32,057 nt of DNA from an uncultured Bacilli bacterium. GTDB lineage: Bacteria; Bacillota_I; Bacilli_A; RF39; UBA660. How positions within the stretch are numbered: the stretch's first letter is position 1; every line of letters starts with the position of its first letter. Made by a program: the position numbers and the translations under genes. The stretch spans positions 1 to 32,057 of the forward strand of contig CANQZN010000005.1 of assembly GCA_947628365.1 (NCBI GenBank), read 5' to 3'. Below, piece by piece: positions 3,256 to 32,057 of this stretch. The notes under the pieces are model-generated. The model was not told the origin of the DNA and did not search any database. It saw only the letters and a program-made list of their open reading frames with translations.

Positions 3256-3284
3256 TTGACACCGGGGGGGGGGTAATATATAAT
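3256..3284 (+). promoter_or_regulatory. Poly-G-spacer promoter, copy 1 (10 G, 17-bp spacer)
   Basis: TTGACA 3256-3261, cc, G10 (3264-3273), taata, TATAAT 3279-3284. Confidence 0.85.
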
Positions 3285-3313: not shown

Positions 3314-4621
3314 ATGAGAATAATTAACAAGAAATATTTATTAATAATAATTTTGGTAGGAGTAATAATAACCGGTATCATAATATTTAAACCAAAAGAA
3401 AATATTAAACTTGATAATGTAATATCAAAACAAAAAGTAAATAATAAAACATTTGCTATGTATACTGAAACAGATAATGGATATGAAGAATATAAAGATA
3501 ATAAATTTCCAGAAGGATATGTCTTAAATACAAATGAAAGTAAATGTATAGATAATAATGGAAAAGAAGTAGATAATATATTAAGTTTTAATAATGGAGA
3601 AGTGACTATAACAAGTGGAAAAACAACTTATTGTTATTTATATTTTGATAAGAGTTTAGGACTTGAAATAAAAGAAAAAGAACCCAAAGGGTTAAGTTTA
3701 GATAAAGAACGAGGAGCAATGTATCGATTTCAAGGTCAAGCGAGAGATGCAGAAGGAAATGAACTAGTAGATAATTATATATGTTTTGGAACAAGTGACA
3801 AAGATACATGTGTAAAAGATACAGATCATTATATGTATAGAATAATAGGAATAGAAACATCTACAGGAAGAGTAAAAGTAATAAAAAAAGAGGCATTAAA
3901 TAACACAGTAAATTGGTGGGATGATTATGATCATGATAAAACATTCCCAGAAAGTAAAATATATGAAGCAATAAGTGGAGATAAATTTTTAACCAATAAA
4001 GACTATATTCCACTAGGTTGGGAAGAAAAAATATCAACTAATACATGGATGTATGGAGATATGTTGAGCAACGATGTATTAGGAGCACGACAAACAGGAG
4101 AGGGTTTATATCAAACGGAAACCGGAAAGAAAGCAACAAAATGGTATAATTACGCAACGAAAGAAACGCCAGGTGCAATACAAGCAACAGTAGGATATGA
4201 GTCCTCACCATATAAAGGACAAACAGTATATTATACAGACGGAAAAGGAAAATGGACAAAGTCATTTGATTCAAAGGTAAGTTTAATGTATCTACACGAT
4301 TATCATTATTCAGTAAGTGATACAGCAAATTGTCAAATTACTGCAGGACAATATGCGGAGTGTAAAACAGGCTGGATGCATTTAAGTAATAATGATTCAG
4401 GTCTTACTGGTGAAGGTGTTCATGAATGGTCGATGTCACGGTATGGTTGGGATACTTTTTATGGCTTTTTTCATGGTCTTGGAATAAGTATCTATGGTTA
4501 TACTAGTAACGGTATCTTGATGAGCTATTTTTCTATTCGCCCTGTATTTTATATAAACGCCTCAGAAAAATTATTAAGTGGAACCGGAACGATAACAGAT
4601 CCTTTTATGATAAAAGAATAA
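3314..4621 (+). CDS. Predicted surface/secreted variable protein, copy 1: TM anchor, stalk, C-terminal FSIRPVF module
   Basis: N-terminal hydrophobic segment MRIINKKYLLIIILVGVIITGIIIF. Paralogous to 29258..30529 over most of its length. C-terminal SIRPVFYINASEKLLSGTGTITDPF. Confidence 0.85.
   Translation: MRIINKKYLLIIILVGVIITGIIIFKPKENIKLDNVISKQKVNNKTFAMYTETDNGYEEYKDNKFPEGYVLNTNESKCIDNNGKEVDNILSFNNGEVTITSGKTTYCYLYFDKSLGLEIKEKEPKGLSLDKERGAMYRFQGQARDAEGNELVDNYICFGTSDKDTCVKDTDHYMYRIIGIETSTGRVKVIKKEALNNTVNWWDDYDHDKTFPESKIYEAISGDKFLTNKDYIPLGWEEKISTNTWMYGDMLSNDVLGARQTGEGLYQTETGKKATKWYNYATKETPGAIQATVGYESSPYKGQTVYYTDGKGKWTKSFDSKVSLMYLHDYHYSVSDTANCQITAGQYAECKTGWMHLSNNDSGLTGEGVHEWSMSRYGWDTFYGFFHGLGISIYGYTSNGILMSYFSIRPVFYINASEKLLSGTGTITDPFMIKE
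4424..4545 (+). other. Hypervariable block (about 4424-4526) plus conserved 3' anchor (4527-4545) in variable protein copy 1
   Basis: Aligned by hand to 30335-30456: same length, about 47/99 nt differ, scaffold residues conserved, followed by an identical 19-mer atttttctattcgccctgt. Confidence 0.7.
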
Positions 4622-6979: not shown

Positions 6980-7684
6980 TTATAGACTATTTTTATTTTT
7001 AATAAATTCTCTTAATATTTTAGTTAAAGCTCTTTTTTCAATTCTTGAAACATAACTACGAGATATACCCATTTCATCAGCAATTTCTTTTTGCGTTAAA
7101 TCTTTTTCGTTATTTAGTCCATATCTTTTAATAATTATTTCTCTTTCTCTTTTATTTAATTTCTGCATATATTTTTTTAATAAAGCAATATTATCTTTAA
7201 TTTGTAAGGTATCTAAGATATCTTCTTTTTTATCTTCTAACATATCTGCTAAATTAATTTCATTTCCTTCTTTATCATAACCAATGGAATCATTTAAAGA
7301 GATAGTAAATTGATTTTTCTTATTGCTTCTGTAAAACATTAGAATTTCATTTTGAATACATCTTGCGGCATAAGTTGTTATTTTAACGGTTGGTGTTTTT
7401 TTATAAGTATCAATTCCTTTAATTAACCCAATCGTACCTATAGAAATTAAATCATCCGTATCAGTACTTTTATTATCAAACTTTTTAACAATATGCGCGA
7501 CTAATCTTAAATTATGCTCAATCAAAATACTTCTGGCTTCAGTATCTCCTTGTAACATTTTATCAACATATTTATCTTCTTCTTCACTAGTTAAAGGTGG
7601 AGGGAAGACATTATTACCATAGCTTCCAGTAAAAAAAATCATACTTTTTACCATAGCAATTAAATTTAAAAACATAAAATACAC
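6980..7684 (-). CDS. sigK: RNA polymerase sporulation sigma factor SigK
   Basis: IEHNLRLVAHIVKKFDN, DLISIGTIGLIKGI and MGISRSYVSRIEKRALTKI, with an N-terminal hydrophobic pro-region (VFPPPLTSEEE). Confidence 0.9.
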   Translation of the reverse strand: MYFMFLNLIAMVKSMIFFTGSYGNNVFPPPLTSEEEDKYVDKMLQGDTEARSILIEHNLRLVAHIVKKFDNKSTDTDDLISIGTIGLIKGIDTYKKTPTVKITTYAARCIQNEILMFYRSNKKNQFTISLNDSIGYDKEGNEINLADMLEDKKEDILDTLQIKDNIALLKKYMQKLNKREREIIIKRYGLNNEKDLTQKEIADEMGISRSYVSRIEKRALTKILREFIKNKNSL

Positions 7685-8052: not shown

Positions 8053-10608
8053 ATGAAAAAAGTTGTATTAGTTGATGGTAATAATTTATTATTTCGTTCT
8101 TATTACGCAACAGCTTATACAGGAACAATAATGCGTAATAGCAAGGGGTTTCCTACTAATGCTTTATATGGCTTTGTAGGTATGATTAATAAAATTATTA
8201 CAGAAGAAAATCCAGAATATATGGTTGTCGCATTTGATATTGGTAAAAATTTTCGTAAACAAAAATATGACTTTTATAAAGAAGGGAGAAATGCAACTCC
8301 AGATGATTTAAAAGTCCAAATGCCTATAGCAAGAGAAATTTTAAAGGCTATGGGAATTACTTATCTAGAACTTGCTCCTTATGAAGCTGATGATATTATT
8401 GGTACAGTTGCCAAATCCGCTGAAGAAAATCCAGAATTTTATTCTCTAATTGTTTCAAGTGATAAAGATTTATTACAACTTATTAGTTTTGAAACAGAAA
8501 TTAAATTATTAAAACAATCTGGTTTTATTAGATATAATGAAGAATCTTTTAAAAAAGATTATGGTATTGAACCAATCAGAATTATTGATTTAAAATCTTT
8601 AATGGGTGATTCATCTGATAATATTCCGGGAGTTAAAGGTATTGGGGAAAAAACTGCCTTAAAGTTATTACAAGAATATAAGTCTTTAGATGGTATTTAT
8701 GAAAATATTGAAAGTATTACGGGTAAAACTAAAGAAAAATTATTAACTGATAAAGATAATGCTTATATGAGTTATGAACTTGCGACTATATATAGAGAAG
8801 TGCCAATTGATATTGATTTTAATGCTTTTAAATATAATGGCCCTAATGTTATTGAACTTAAGAAAATATATGAAGAATTAGAATTTTATTCCATGCTTAA
8901 AAATATAGTTGTCAAAAAAGAAGTTAAAGAAGAAATGAAATTTACCACTATTAATAATTTAGAAGATCTTATTTTAAGTGATAAAGTATCTTTTTACTTA
9001 GAAGTAGATGATATTAATTATCATAAAGGTAATATTTTAGGGCTAGGTATAACTACTAATGAGAGTACTTATTTTATTCCAAGTAATTTAGTTAAAGATG
9101 CTGTGAAACTATTACAAGATAAAGAATTAATAACTTATGATTTAAAGAAAAGTTTAGTGGTAGTATCTAGTGATATTAAATGTCAATTTGATTTAATGGT
9201 GGCTTCCTATTTAGTTGATTATCCAGCAAGTGATGATATTTCAAAACTTATGAATAGTTTTAATGAAGAGTGTATAAGCTTTGAAGATTTTAAGAAAAAT
9301 GGATTTAAAGATGCGCCTCAAGTTATAGCTAAGAAAAGTAAATTTATTTATGATTACTCTGAAAAAATTAAAGAACTAGTTAATGCCGAAAATCAAACAG
9401 AAATCTTAAATAAAATTGAAATGCCACTTATTTATGTTCTAGCAGATATGGAAAAAAGCGGGTTTAAGTTTGAAAGTAGTGCCCTTGATGAAATGCGGGA
9501 AGAGGTAAAACGCAAAATTGATTTAGTAACTCAAGAAATTCATGATTTAAGTGGTGAAAACTTTAATGTCGCAAGTCCTAAACAATTAGGTATTGTCTTA
9601 TTTGAAAAAATGGACATTGGTAAAAGTAAAAAAATCAATAGAGGTTATAAAACAGATATTAAAACTCTACAAAAATATGTTGATAAACATCCAATTGTCA
9701 ACAAAGTGCTTGAATATCGTAATCTATCAAAACTTTATAGTACTTACTTAGAGGGCTTACAAGAATATGTTTTAGAAGATGGTAAAATTCATACTATTTT
9801 TAATCAAACATTAACAAGAACCGGGCGTCTATCTTCCATGGAACCTAATTTACAAAATATTCCTGCTAGAGAAGAATATGGAAAAAAGGTAAGACTAGCA
9901 TTTGTTCCAACAAAAGATTTAATTCTAAGTGCTGATTATTCGCAAATTGAACTAAGAATTTTAGCTCATATTTCTGATTGCAAAGAACTGATTGAAGCAT
10001 TTGTTAATGATCAAGATATTCATACTAAAGTAGCTGCGGATATTCATGGTATCAAAGAAAGTGAAGTAACTAAGAATATGCGTAGTATGGCTAAAGCAGT
10101 TATTTTTGGTATAGTCTATGGTATCAGTGGTTTTGGTTTAGGAGAAAACTTACATATTTCGAGAACTGAAGCCAATAAATTTATCGAAAAATATTATGAA
10201 CTATATCCAGGGGTTAAAAATTATATGGATGAAATAGTTAAAAAGGCATATGATACCGGTGAAGTTAAAACAATGTTTGGTAGAGTAAGAAAGATTACAG
10301 AATTAAAAGATACTAATTATCATACTAGAGCAATGGGCGAAAGGATGGCTTTAAATACGCCAATTCAAGGTACTAGTGCTGATATCATGAAAATGGCGAT
10401 GATTGAAGTTTATAATAAAATTAAAGAAAATAATTTAGAAAGTAAAATGATTTTACAAGTTCATGATGAAATAATTATTGACGCCAAAAAAGAAGAAGTT
10501 GATATTTTAAAGAAAATAGTTAAAGAAGCTATGGAAAATGTCGTTAAATTAAAAGTACCTCTAAAAATTGAAATAAATTTAGGTATTAATTGGTATGATG
10601 CTAAGTAG
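8053..10608 (+). CDS. polA: DNA polymerase I
   Basis: N-terminal 5'-3' exonuclease (VDGNNLLFRSYYA, SSDKDLLQL, GDSSDNIPGVKGIGEKTA). Polymerase motifs (TRTGRLSSMEPNLQNIP, ADYSQIELRILAH, LQVHDEIIID). Confidence 0.97.
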   Translation: MKKVVLVDGNNLLFRSYYATAYTGTIMRNSKGFPTNALYGFVGMINKIITEENPEYMVVAFDIGKNFRKQKYDFYKEGRNATPDDLKVQMPIAREILKAMGITYLELAPYEADDIIGTVAKSAEENPEFYSLIVSSDKDLLQLISFETEIKLLKQSGFIRYNEESFKKDYGIEPIRIIDLKSLMGDSSDNIPGVKGIGEKTALKLLQEYKSLDGIYENIESITGKTKEKLLTDKDNAYMSYELATIYREVPIDIDFNAFKYNGPNVIELKKIYEELEFYSMLKNIVVKKEVKEEMKFTTINNLEDLILSDKVSFYLEVDDINYHKGNILGLGITTNESTYFIPSNLVKDAVKLLQDKELITYDLKKSLVVVSSDIKCQFDLMVASYLVDYPASDDISKLMNSFNEECISFEDFKKNGFKDAPQVIAKKSKFIYDYSEKIKELVNAENQTEILNKIEMPLIYVLADMEKSGFKFESSALDEMREEVKRKIDLVTQEIHDLSGENFNVASPKQLGIVLFEKMDIGKSKKINRGYKTDIKTLQKYVDKHPIVNKVLEYRNLSKLYSTYLEGLQEYVLEDGKIHTIFNQTLTRTGRLSSMEPNLQNIPAREEYGKKVRLAFVPTKDLILSADYSQIELRILAHISDCKELIEAFVNDQDIHTKVAADIHGIKESEVTKNMRSMAKAVIFGIVYGISGFGLGENLHISRTEANKFIEKYYELYPGVKNYMDEIVKKAYDTGEVKTMFGRVRKITELKDTNYHTRAMGERMALNTPIQGTSADIMKMAMIEVYNKIKENNLESKMILQVHDEIIIDAKKEEVDILKKIVKEAMENVVKLKVPLKIEINLGINWYDAK

Positions 10609-28057: not shown

Positions 28058-29164
28058 TTGGTGATAATTATGGAATATATAATAATTGGCTTACTTATAT
28101 TAATAGTTATTTTATTATTAATAATATTACTAAAAAATAATGGTAGTAAAGATTTAATTGAAAGAATTGGTAGACTTGATACTAGTTTAACTAAAGATAT
28201 TGGTGATTTTAAATTAAATTTTAGTAAAGATTTAAGAAGTGATTTTGAAGTCTTAGATAATAAAATAGAATATAAACTTAATTTAATTAATGATCGAGTA
28301 AATAATCAATTATCTGAAAATTTTGAGAAAAGTAATAAAACATTTATGAATGTTTTAGAAAGATTAAATAAGATAGATGAAGCTCAAAAGAAAATTGATA
28401 GTTTAAATACTGAAATAGTTTCCTTGCAAAGTGTTTTAACTGATAAAAAGACAAGAGGAACATTTGGTGAGGTTAATCTAGAATATATTTTAAATAATGC
28501 TTTCGGTTCTGCTAAAGGTGGTATCTATGATACACAACATAAGATGAGTAATGGCTATGTTGCTGATTGCCTATTATATGCTCCATCTCCTTTAGGAGTT
28601 ATTGCTATTGATAGTAAATTTCCTCTTGAGAATTATCAAAAAATGGTTGATAAAAATAGAACTAAAGAGGAAAGAGCAATATTAGAGAAAAGTTTTATAA
28701 ATGATGTGAAAAAACATATTAATGATATTTCTGAAAAATATATTATACCGGGTGAAACTAGTGATGAAGCTATTATGTTTTTACCAGCAGAAGCTTTATT
28801 TGCAGAGATAAATGCTTATCATCCTGAATTACTCAATTATGCTTATTCTAAAAAAGTTTGGATTACTGGTCCAACTACTTTAATTAGTACTTTATCAATT
28901 ATTAGTATGATTTTAAAAAATATGGAAAGAGATAAGTATGCTAAAGTTATCCATGAAGAATTAGATAAATTAGGTGTTGAATTTAGTAGATATAAAGATA
29001 GATGGGATAAATTATCTAGAAGTGTTAAAAGTGTTAATCAAAGTTTAGATGAATTACATACCACAACCGAAAAGATTACTAAAAGATTTGAAAGTATTAA
29101 AAATGCTGAAATTGATAAATTAAAAGGCGAAGAAATAAAATTAGTTCCTGATAGTGAAGAATAA
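28058..29164 (+). CDS. rmuC: DNA recombination protein RmuC
   Basis: KKTRGTFGEVNLEYIL, AIDSKFPLENYQKMV, EAIMFLPAEALFAEI, ITGPTTLISTLSIISM. Confidence 0.94.
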   Translation: MVIIMEYIIIGLLILIVILLLIILLKNNGSKDLIERIGRLDTSLTKDIGDFKLNFSKDLRSDFEVLDNKIEYKLNLINDRVNNQLSENFEKSNKTFMNVLERLNKIDEAQKKIDSLNTEIVSLQSVLTDKKTRGTFGEVNLEYILNNAFGSAKGGIYDTQHKMSNGYVADCLLYAPSPLGVIAIDSKFPLENYQKMVDKNRTKEERAILEKSFINDVKKHINDISEKYIIPGETSDEAIMFLPAEALFAEINAYHPELLNYAYSKKVWITGPTTLISTLSIISMILKNMERDKYAKVIHEELDKLGVEFSRYKDRWDKLSRSVKSVNQSLDELHTTTEKITKRFESIKNAEIDKLKGEEIKLVPDSEE

Positions 29165-29194
29165 AAATTGTTGTAAGTTAAACAACATTTTTTT
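29165..29194 (+). terminator. Conserved cassette hairpin plus T-tract (copy 2)
   Basis: aaaattGTTGtaagttaaaCAACattttttt. Confidence 0.65.
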
Positions 29195-29203
29195 GATAAC
29201 AAC

Positions 29204-29228
29204 TTGACACCGGGGGGTAATATATAAT
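29204..29228 (+). promoter_or_regulatory. Poly-G-spacer promoter, copy 2 (6 G, 13-bp spacer)
   Basis: TTGACA 29204-29209, cc, G6 (29212-29217), taata, TATAAT 29223-29228. Confidence 0.8.
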
Positions 29229-29257
29229 TATCTTATAAAATAGGAGAGAGTTATTTT

Positions 29258-30529
29258 ATGAGAATAATTAACAAAAAATATTTATTGATAATATTGTTGG
29301 TAGGAGTAGTACTAACTGGTGTCATAATATTGAAACCAACTAAAGAAGTTAAACTAGATAATGTTATCTTAAAACAAGAGGTAAATAATAAAACTTTTGC
29401 TATGTATACAGAAACAGATAATGGTTATGAGGAATATGAAGGAAATAAATTTCCAGATATGTATGTACTTAATCTAACCGAATCAAAATGTATAGATAAT
29501 AATGGTAATAAATTAGAAGATGTATTAAGTTATGAAAATGATAAAGTAACAATAACAAGCGGAAATACAACATATTGTTATTTGTATTTTGATAAGAGCT
29601 TAGGCTTAGAAATAAAAGAAAAGAATCCAAACAAATTAAGTGAAGAAATCAAAGGAGCTATGTATAGATTTCAAGGCCAACAAAAAGATGATGTTCGAAA
29701 TTATATCTGTTTCGGAACTAATGATCAAAATACTTGTAAAGGTGATACTGATCACTATATGTATAGAATAATAGGAATAGAAGCAGAAACAGGAAGAGTA
29801 AAAGTAATAAAGAAAGAAGCCTTAAATGAGAAATATCCATGGTATACAGATAAAGATGCAGATATAGATTTTCCAAAAAGCAAAATATATGAAGCACTAA
29901 ATGAAGATAAATTTTTAAAAAATATATCTTATGTACCAACAGATTGGAACGCTAAAATATCCGATAATACTTGGCTATATGGCGATATGCTTTATAATGG
30001 TTCTTCAGGAGAAACAAGTCAAACTGGAAAAGAATTATATTTAATAGAAACTGGACAAAAAGAAACAAAATGGTATAATTATGCTACAGAGGATACCACA
30101 GGAGCACTACCACATTTAGTAACTGATAAAAATTCTGGAAATATAGGTAAAACAATATATTATACAAATGGAAGTGGATATTGGACAGAAACATTTGAAA
30201 GTAAAGTAAGTTTAATGTATTTACATGATTATTATTATTCTGTAAGTGATGAAGCAAATTGTGATTCGGATGAAAATTGTAAAAGTGGTTGGATGCATTT
30301 ATCTCAAAATGATAAAAATGTATCAAACGGTATCGAGTGGACAATGACACGTCAAGGCTGGCGTATTGTTTTGGGCTGGTTTGACGGATTAATAGTTCCC
30401 GATGATGGTAATATACGTACAGGGGGATTACTTAATAATTTTTCTATTCGCCCTGTCTTCTATATCGATGCATCTGAAAAATTATTAAATGGAAAAGGTA
30501 CACTAGAAGATCCGTTTATAATAAAATAA
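29258..30529 (+). CDS. Predicted surface/secreted variable protein, copy 2
   Basis: Same leader, stalk (KTFAMYTETDNGYEEY..KCIDNNG..TYCYLYFDKSLGLEIKEK) and FSIRPVFYIDASEKLLNGKGTLEDPF C-terminus as 3314..4621. Confidence 0.85.
   Translation: MRIINKKYLLIILLVGVVLTGVIILKPTKEVKLDNVILKQEVNNKTFAMYTETDNGYEEYEGNKFPDMYVLNLTESKCIDNNGNKLEDVLSYENDKVTITSGNTTYCYLYFDKSLGLEIKEKNPNKLSEEIKGAMYRFQGQQKDDVRNYICFGTNDQNTCKGDTDHYMYRIIGIEAETGRVKVIKKEALNEKYPWYTDKDADIDFPKSKIYEALNEDKFLKNISYVPTDWNAKISDNTWLYGDMLYNGSSGETSQTGKELYLIETGQKETKWYNYATEDTTGALPHLVTDKNSGNIGKTIYYTNGSGYWTETFESKVSLMYLHDYYYSVSDEANCDSDENCKSGWMHLSQNDKNVSNGIEWTMTRQGWRIVLGWFDGLIVPDDGNIRTGGLLNNFSIRPVFYIDASEKLLNGKGTLEDPFIIK
30335..30456 (+). other. Hypervariable block (about 30335-30437) plus conserved 3' anchor (30438-30456) in variable protein copy 2
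   Basis: Aligned by hand to 4424-4545, same length, identical 19-nt 3' anchor. Confidence 0.7.
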
Positions 30530-31453: not shown

Positions 31454-31479
31454 TTGACACCGGGGGGGTAATATATAAT
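31454..31479 (+). promoter_or_regulatory. Poly-G-spacer promoter, copy 3 (7 G, 14-bp spacer)
   Basis: TTGACA 31454-31459, cc, G7 (31462-31468), taata, TATAAT 31474-31479. Confidence 0.8.
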
Positions 31480-31508: not shown

Positions 31509-32057
31509 ATGAGAATAATTAACAAAAAATATTTATTGATAATACTTTTGGTTGGAGTAATCATAACCGGTGTCATATTATTTAAACCAAAAGAAGAATT
31601 AAAATTATATGAAGTAAAATTACAAGATGATAATAAAAAAGATTTAGCTATTATGGTAGAACAATTAGATAAGAGTTATAAAGAAAATAATAAAATACCA
31701 TATAAAGGATATACATTAAATGAAACGATGACAAAATGTATAGATAATAATGGTAATGTAGTAAATGAAGAGATTACTTACGAAAATGGAACAATAACAA
31801 TAAGTACAGATAGAACAATATATTGTTATTTATATTTTGATAGACAAGACGAGATAGAAGATTTAAGTGGGCAAAATCATAATGGCAAAAATTATGCAGT
31901 AGAGTGGACAGAAGAAGGAATAACAACAAGCGTTGATTCAAATAATTTGGGCTATGTAGATTGTGGACTTGCAAAGTACGATTTTGAAGATTCAATAACT
32001 ATGGTAACTAGAGTAAAATTTAATGATTTAACCGGACAACAAGATTTTTTTGGAAAT
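31509..32057 (+). CDS. Predicted surface/secreted variable protein, copy 3, with LamG/ConA-like module; truncated by window end
   Basis: Leader MRIINKKYLLIILLVGVIITGVILF and KCIDNNG..YCYLYFD stalk shared with copies 1 and 2; then DLSGQNHNGKNY..GYVDCGLAKYDFEDSITMVTRVKF, typical of LamG/ConA-like lectin folds. Open to the window end. Confidence 0.8.
   Translation, partial: MRIINKKYLLIILLVGVIITGVILFKPKEELKLYEVKLQDDNKKDLAIMVEQLDKSYKENNKIPYKGYTLNETMTKCIDNNGNVVNEEITYENGTITISTDRTIYCYLYFDRQDEIEDLSGQNHNGKNYAVEWTEEGITTSVDSNNLGYVDCGLAKYDFEDSITMVTRVKFNDLTGQQDFFGN

Follow-up and report, generated by a model that had tools for sequence, protein, structure and literature searches.

The spacer-type phase-variable promoters that we found described belong to pathogens and were characterized gene by gene; in the case reported here, one cassette covers about 42 surface genes in a gut bacterium with a small genome. 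In Neisseria, porA and fetA have the same promoter geometry as the one considered here. For porA the optimal spacer is 17 bp, and transcription is lost when the spacer is shorter (PMC2791445, PMC7864442). In Treponema pallidum, the gene of the surface protein tp0126 has a poly-G between the −35 and −10 boxes with an optimum of 17 nt, and the tpr genes have a poly-G of varying length within their promoter (PMC7864442). As regards diversity-generating retroelements, one that has two templates, its six variable repeats being located in different ORFs, has been published (PMC6642488), and in the targets of Faecalibacterium prophage retroelements DUF6273 carries the variable region at its C-terminus (PMC11792537).

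The window, i.e., the whole stretch of DNA that was analysed, comprises 32,057 nucleotides of an uncultured Bacilli bacterium (assembly GCA_947628365.1, contig CANQZN010000005.1). Its poly-G promoter at 29204-29228 resembles those of porA and fetA in that a homopolymer lies between the −35 and −10 boxes of a surface-protein gene. It differs from them in that single genes are concerned in Neisseria, whereas about 42 repeats of one cassette are found here in a 1.1-Mb genome, most of them preceded by a terminator-like hairpin and all sharing the same leader. The difference from tprL is of another kind: the tract of tprL overlaps the −10 region and does not act as a spacer, whereas every copy is here a near-identical spacer cassette.

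The same genome contains a retroelement that shares with those of the BPP-1 type (PMC8144416) the kind of reverse transcriptase, template and variable repeats, adenine-specific changes and a variable segment at the C-terminus, within a domain that is tentatively lectin-like; a putative Avd-like protein is also present. However, it has four tandem templates at one locus and a mosaic variable repeat, and its targets are scattered over the genome, most of them behind poly-G promoters. The Faecalibacterium DUF6273 targets have their variable region at the same position, i.e., at the C-terminus of the DUF6273(-like) region, but they are phage proteins, whereas those considered here are membrane-anchored cell proteins unrecognised by Pfam sequence profiles. 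Promoters of this type are already known (porA; Treponema tp0126). What is unusual is the scale and the pairing with a retroelement that has four templates.

Promoter cassette and its copies in the window

The sequence at 29204-29228 is exactly TTGACA-CC-GGGGGG-TAATA-TATAAT on the forward strand, i.e., a −35 box (29204..29209), a G6 tract (29212..29217) which is the length-variable part of the spacer, and a −10 box (29223..29228). The resulting spacer of 13 bp is the shortest in the genome. TTGACA is the same in 41/41 complete cassettes of the genome and TATAAT is invariant across all cassettes. The earlier note had described this site as a promoter with a G tract as spacer and as a copy, four G shorter, of a first promoter with the same boxes and flanks. 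Both descriptions are accurate: the homopolymer sits between recognisable −35 and −10 boxes, and the G6 is to be compared with the G10 of copy 1 (3256..3284, forward strand), which has a 17-bp spacer and is predicted ON. A third copy, which the earlier note does not mention (31454..31479, forward strand), has a G7 tract and a 14-bp spacer and is predicted OFF. The cassette pattern is thus found three times in the window vs. 0 in 100 dinucleotide shuffles, and no G run of at least 6 occurs in the window outside these three copies.

Downstream of the cassette promoter are found a 29-nt leader with a ribosome site and then a common membrane anchor (MRIINKKYLLIIILVG...). In the copy considered here the leader (29229..29257, forward strand; TATCTTATAAAATA, nearly invariant in the family) includes the Shine-Dalgarno-like AGGAGAG. 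Just upstream of the promoter, an A/T-rich hairpin followed by a T-run (29163..29194, forward strand) carries the conserved AAGTTAACAACATTTTTTT element. The latter is found upstream of nearly every −35 box, and in most copies it corresponds to the 3' half of the hairpin with its T-run. A hairpin is obtained by a simple stem rule in 27 of 39 copies, the mean folding z being −2.3 vs. mononucleotide shuffles. The hairpin at 29163..29194 looks like a terminator; it would end the transcript of the RmuC-like gene located upstream and should protect the promoter against read-through. While the boxes, the leader, the flanks and the region of the start codon hardly vary among the cassettes, the tract ranges from G6 to G10.

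Cassette family in the genome and in the genus

Further sites with the same boxes and a Gn tract, which the earlier note had proposed to look for, do exist: the genome that includes the window (G000; 1.10 Mb, 88 contigs) contains 40 exact cassettes vs. 0 for the reversed control pattern. One AATC-G7 variant and one copy cut at the end of contig C31 must be added, so that the family consists of 41 complete cassettes plus one contig-end-cut copy, i.e., about 42. The earlier note had missed the scale of this family; it had also missed the terminator-like element that accompanies the promoters and the connection with a diversity-generating retroelement. Most of the G runs of at least 6 seen in the genome fall within cassette promoters. 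It must be noticed that a G8 run at G000:C2:9022 (L273:223), directly before TATAATTTATAAT and upstream of an acetyltransferase-like gene, has no TTGACA box; it may be a poly-G promoter that is degenerate or of another kind.

The genus was scanned with a broader pattern, TTGACA-(0-4)-G6+-...-TATAAT. This pattern is found in 10 of the 37 other genomes of the genus, 9 of which have 3 to 36 diverged copies each, and only one single match is found among 62 more distant genomes. In sister species, some of which are uncultured Bacilli of the rabbit gut («Lapin» bins), the G tract is located in the same place despite changed flanks, in which bases are added or replaced in some cases (CTC-Gn-TATTA, ATC-Gn-TAATT). 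Nearly all sister-species spacers have 14-17 bp, and tract length varies in most of the multi-copy sister species. G8 is the modal tract in two species, and the modal spacer across the genus is 15-16 bp.

TTGACA-Gn-TATAAT with G8 or more was also observed in unrelated gut bacteria among the matches listed (L048-L127). These include lipoproteins of Candidatus Faecalibacterium gallistercoris and faecigallinarum, Candidatus Ancillula with G9-G13, and rabbit-gut Clostridia. This suggests that the poly-G promoter design is widespread, perhaps convergent.

Spacer lengths and predicted promoter states

The ordinary promoters of the same genome were used as a reference (39 TTGACA/TATAAT pairs, the poly-G type being left out). 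Their spacers have 17 bp (n=17), 18 bp (n=6), 16 bp (n=5) or 14 bp (n=1), never 13 or 15 bp, and 10 fall outside that range. On the other hand, the 41 poly-G spacers have 13 bp (n=1), 14 bp (n=7), 15 bp (n=24), 16 bp (n=7) or 17 bp (n=2). In other words, 28/39 ordinary pairs have 16-18 bp, and 13-15 bp are found in 1/39 ordinary pairs vs. 32/41 poly-G promoters (Fisher p=1.2e-10 for 16-18 vs. 13-15 bp). The spacer of a cassette is equal to n+7, or to n+8 in two flank variants of the genome, and a change in tract length carries it across the promoter optimum of this organism (copies 13-17 bp, peak 17 bp).

Because ordinary promoters peak at 17 bp, most copies are predicted to be OFF, that at 29204 most strongly. 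The predicted states are OFF for 32 of the 41 copies, intermediate for 7 and fully ON for 2, one of the latter being copy 1 (3256); the copy at 29204-29228 is predicted to be the furthest from ON in the genome. This agrees with the OFF state previously proposed for the 13-bp spacer, a length used by none of the genome's ordinary consensus promoters. The G6 copy has, in addition, a weak alternative −10 (AATTAT) at 16-bp spacing; low expression is therefore predicted, and silence is not proven. The genus-wide mode of 15-16 bp could mean a low basal set-point instead of OFF. Such an internal calibration makes ON/OFF states predictable from sequence.

Variation of the G tract and its interpretation

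Unequal copies had been presented in the earlier note as direct evidence that the tract is unstable. They are not, because the copies are different loci and not alleles of one locus, but the indirect evidence holds. Over 27 copies, differences in tract length do not correlate with flank divergence (Spearman 0.04, permutation p 0.36), as would be the case for a tract that slips rapidly. Among the pairs that are at most 4 differences apart over 95 nt, 3/7 are unequal in tract length, and length changes among copies are almost confined to the G tract. The ORFs downstream of predicted-OFF promoters are intact. An orthologous tract was sought via khpA synteny, and 0/29 sister loci have a poly-G there; no cassette copy was found in IMG/VR viral contigs. 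Contig ends located inside cassettes were dropped as evidence of tract heterogeneity: they are uninformative in this respect because a repeated cassette alone would break the assembly.

The site at 29204-29228 is one of about 42 near-identical cassettes, each of which is likely to switch its own surface-protein gene by the length of its G tract. According to this model, each cassette would drive its own membrane-anchored, lectin-like surface protein. In every cassette the gap between −35 and −10 is set by tract length: G10 gives the 17-bp optimum (predicted ON), G9 a spacer of 16 bp (predicted intermediate) and G8 or shorter a spacer of at most 15 bp (predicted OFF or nearly so). Gain or loss of G by slipped-strand events would lead to a reversible and independent switching of each gene. 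At any time most genes would be OFF, and the upstream terminator-like hairpin would keep the OFF copies silent. We infer from the sequences that the tract may slip within the population, that this would affect transcription and that switching would be stochastic and independent.

Tract lengths might instead represent a fixed tuning of promoter strength, i.e., stable spacer lengths specific to each paralogue, with a graded and constant expression and no switching. The comparisons made above, which are all between paralogues, are compatible with this, and the G8 mode of two species could be a selected set-point. Nevertheless, such a tuning is unlikely: flank relatedness does not predict tract length, graded expression could be tuned in an A/T-rich genome without any pure G run, and these promoters account for most of the G runs of at least 6 seen in the genome. 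Moreover, a G8 run is generally prone to slippage.

It is very improbable that the G run acts as a conserved protein-binding or G-quadruplex regulatory element whose length is secondary. Its conservation across diverged flanks and species would fit such an element, but the tract lies exactly in the spacer and varies in length while its surroundings are nearly invariant, and one run of 6-10 G would not be expected to fold into an intramolecular quadruplex on its own. The genome was assembled from a metagenome and is fragmented; homopolymers can come out with a wrong length in such an assembly, and several of its contigs break off within a cassette. The true tract could be uniform and the differences could result from homopolymer or repeat misassembly. 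However, the three copies of the window are inside the contig with unique flanks, length also varies in most multi-copy sister species, and the boxes, only a few bases off, are invariant in this genome; an artefact is thus very improbable. Switching by tract length remains the preferred explanation.

Surface proteins behind the cassettes

The gene following the G6 promoter (29258..30529, forward strand) encodes a protein of 423 aa. A membrane helix lies at its N-terminus (residues 6-24), followed by an ectodomain whose C-terminal part is tentatively DUF6273-like. The product of the copy 1 gene (3314..4621, forward strand; 435 aa) is 65% identical to it. The copy 3 gene (31509..32057, forward strand), cut by the contig end, belongs to a subfamily whose complete member has a Laminin_G_3 domain. 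Three types of ectodomains are found in the family: the majority end with S(V/I)RPVFY(I/L), the others being Laminin_G_3 (E=6e-13) and ALK/LTK glycine-rich (E=4e-55). Among the 26 full-length RPVF genes listed, 18 have a complete poly-G promoter, 7 start inside a contig-end cassette and 1 (L201) has none.

No Pfam match by sequence was obtained for the 29258 product, including DUF6273 and C-type-lectin-like domains, and weak Pfam and NCBIfam matches of the window proteins (E 0.02-0.06) were set aside. The structural model of the 29258 product (pLDDT 87.6) matches several viral DUF6273 models (E 2e-7 to 3e-3, probability about 1, with a TM of only ~0.3 of the query) and one IgA peptidase structure (E=5e-6). 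The cassette family encodes membrane-anchored proteins that appear to be lectin-like, which the earlier note had not foreseen; the lectin-like assignment is tentative because solved C-type lectins match this model only at E about 3.

Diversity-generating retroelement

Contig C11 of the same genome (L192:8972-10200) contains four tandem template repeats which start at 8972, 9278, 9604 and 9941, with start-to-start distances of 306-337 bp. The reverse transcriptase of this contig (RVT_1, E=4.7e-18) has IGNMTSQ and YMDD motifs; its best solved relative is 8ub7 («Reverse transcriptase», E=2e-22), which we take to be the BPP-1 retroelement enzyme. An Avd-like protein is found at the expected place in the locus (PF22296 bAvd, E=7e-6, below the curated cut-off), together with a MutS-I-domain protein. 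Another reverse transcriptase, about 330 aa long (L160, G000:C8:9197-9757), is not close to that of the retroelement; it could be of the retron or defence type.

A C-terminal segment of 37 residues in most RPVF proteins aligns without gaps with the four templates. Across the family, mean entropy is 3.12 bits where the template codons have A in their first two bases vs. 1.64 elsewhere (p=5e-5). In L014, a poly-G gene (G9), 12/28 A positions are changed vs. 0/83 elsewhere (p=8e-9), and its variable repeat is a mosaic, i.e., template 4 for the first 33 bases and template 3 onward. The same adenine bias is observed for L017 (G8; p=4e-5), L218 (contig-end-cut cassette; p=2e-5) and L201 (no poly-G; p=4e-4), all these p-values, that of L014 included, being somewhat flattering because the best two-part template was picked for each gene.

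In the window, the variable segment of the 29258 gene (30344..30454, forward strand; 37 residues) is homologous to the template repeats and diverged, and that of the copy 1 gene (4433..4543, forward strand) is also diverged from the templates. The adenine bias is absent from these two genes (p=0.13 and 0.09; for 29258-30529, 18/29 A vs. 37/82 non-A, p=0.09), and the assembly contains no template that shares their 3' end. Both segments are too diverged to be called current targets. Judging from the substitution pattern, a subset of the gene family is rewritten by the four-template retroelement; this pattern is seen for a few genes, and 29258 is not among them.

Poly-G promoters and the retroelement

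Close relatives of the contig C11 reverse transcriptase are mostly found in genomes of the genus without poly-G promoters. The rule that poly-G genomes have this retroelement was rejected, since a clear overlap is observed in the genus only for G000 and G008. In G018, the templates of the retroelement match none of the poly-G genes compared there. The pairing is not strict, and we are therefore dealing with two separate systems which meet on one gene family in the species of the window.

As a possibility somewhat short of probable, these systems may form a two-layer display, in which the multi-template retroelement would rewrite the binding tips and poly-G slippage would pick the lectin-like members that are shown. 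It seems that this bacterium changes not only the set of surface proteins that it displays but also their appearance. If the two-layer display is true, a new variant could be kept silent at first and be shown at a later time. Some cassette genes being also retroelement targets, this family offers a natural test of hypermutation coupled to random expression switching. In the non-subscription literature, judged from titles and the first lines of abstracts, we found no study that connects phase-variable promoters to the targets of diversity-generating retroelements.

Among the sister species, G018 has the largest number of poly-G promoters, and its retroelement is a separate one with a local, adjoining SUMF1-like target. 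Its contig C18 (L261:1-7391) contains two 148-nt repeats, 92% alike, with 8/28 adenine changes and 1/82 others. In G008, the retroelement of contig C9 (L262:2374-4055) has two repeats that resemble templates and, locally, a target of the RPVFYL type; this contig has no poly-G promoter. Lastly, two sporulation-type sigma-factor-like genes, read from their translations, are present in this genome of ~1.1 Mb (window 6980-7684, reverse strand, and L192:404-1198).
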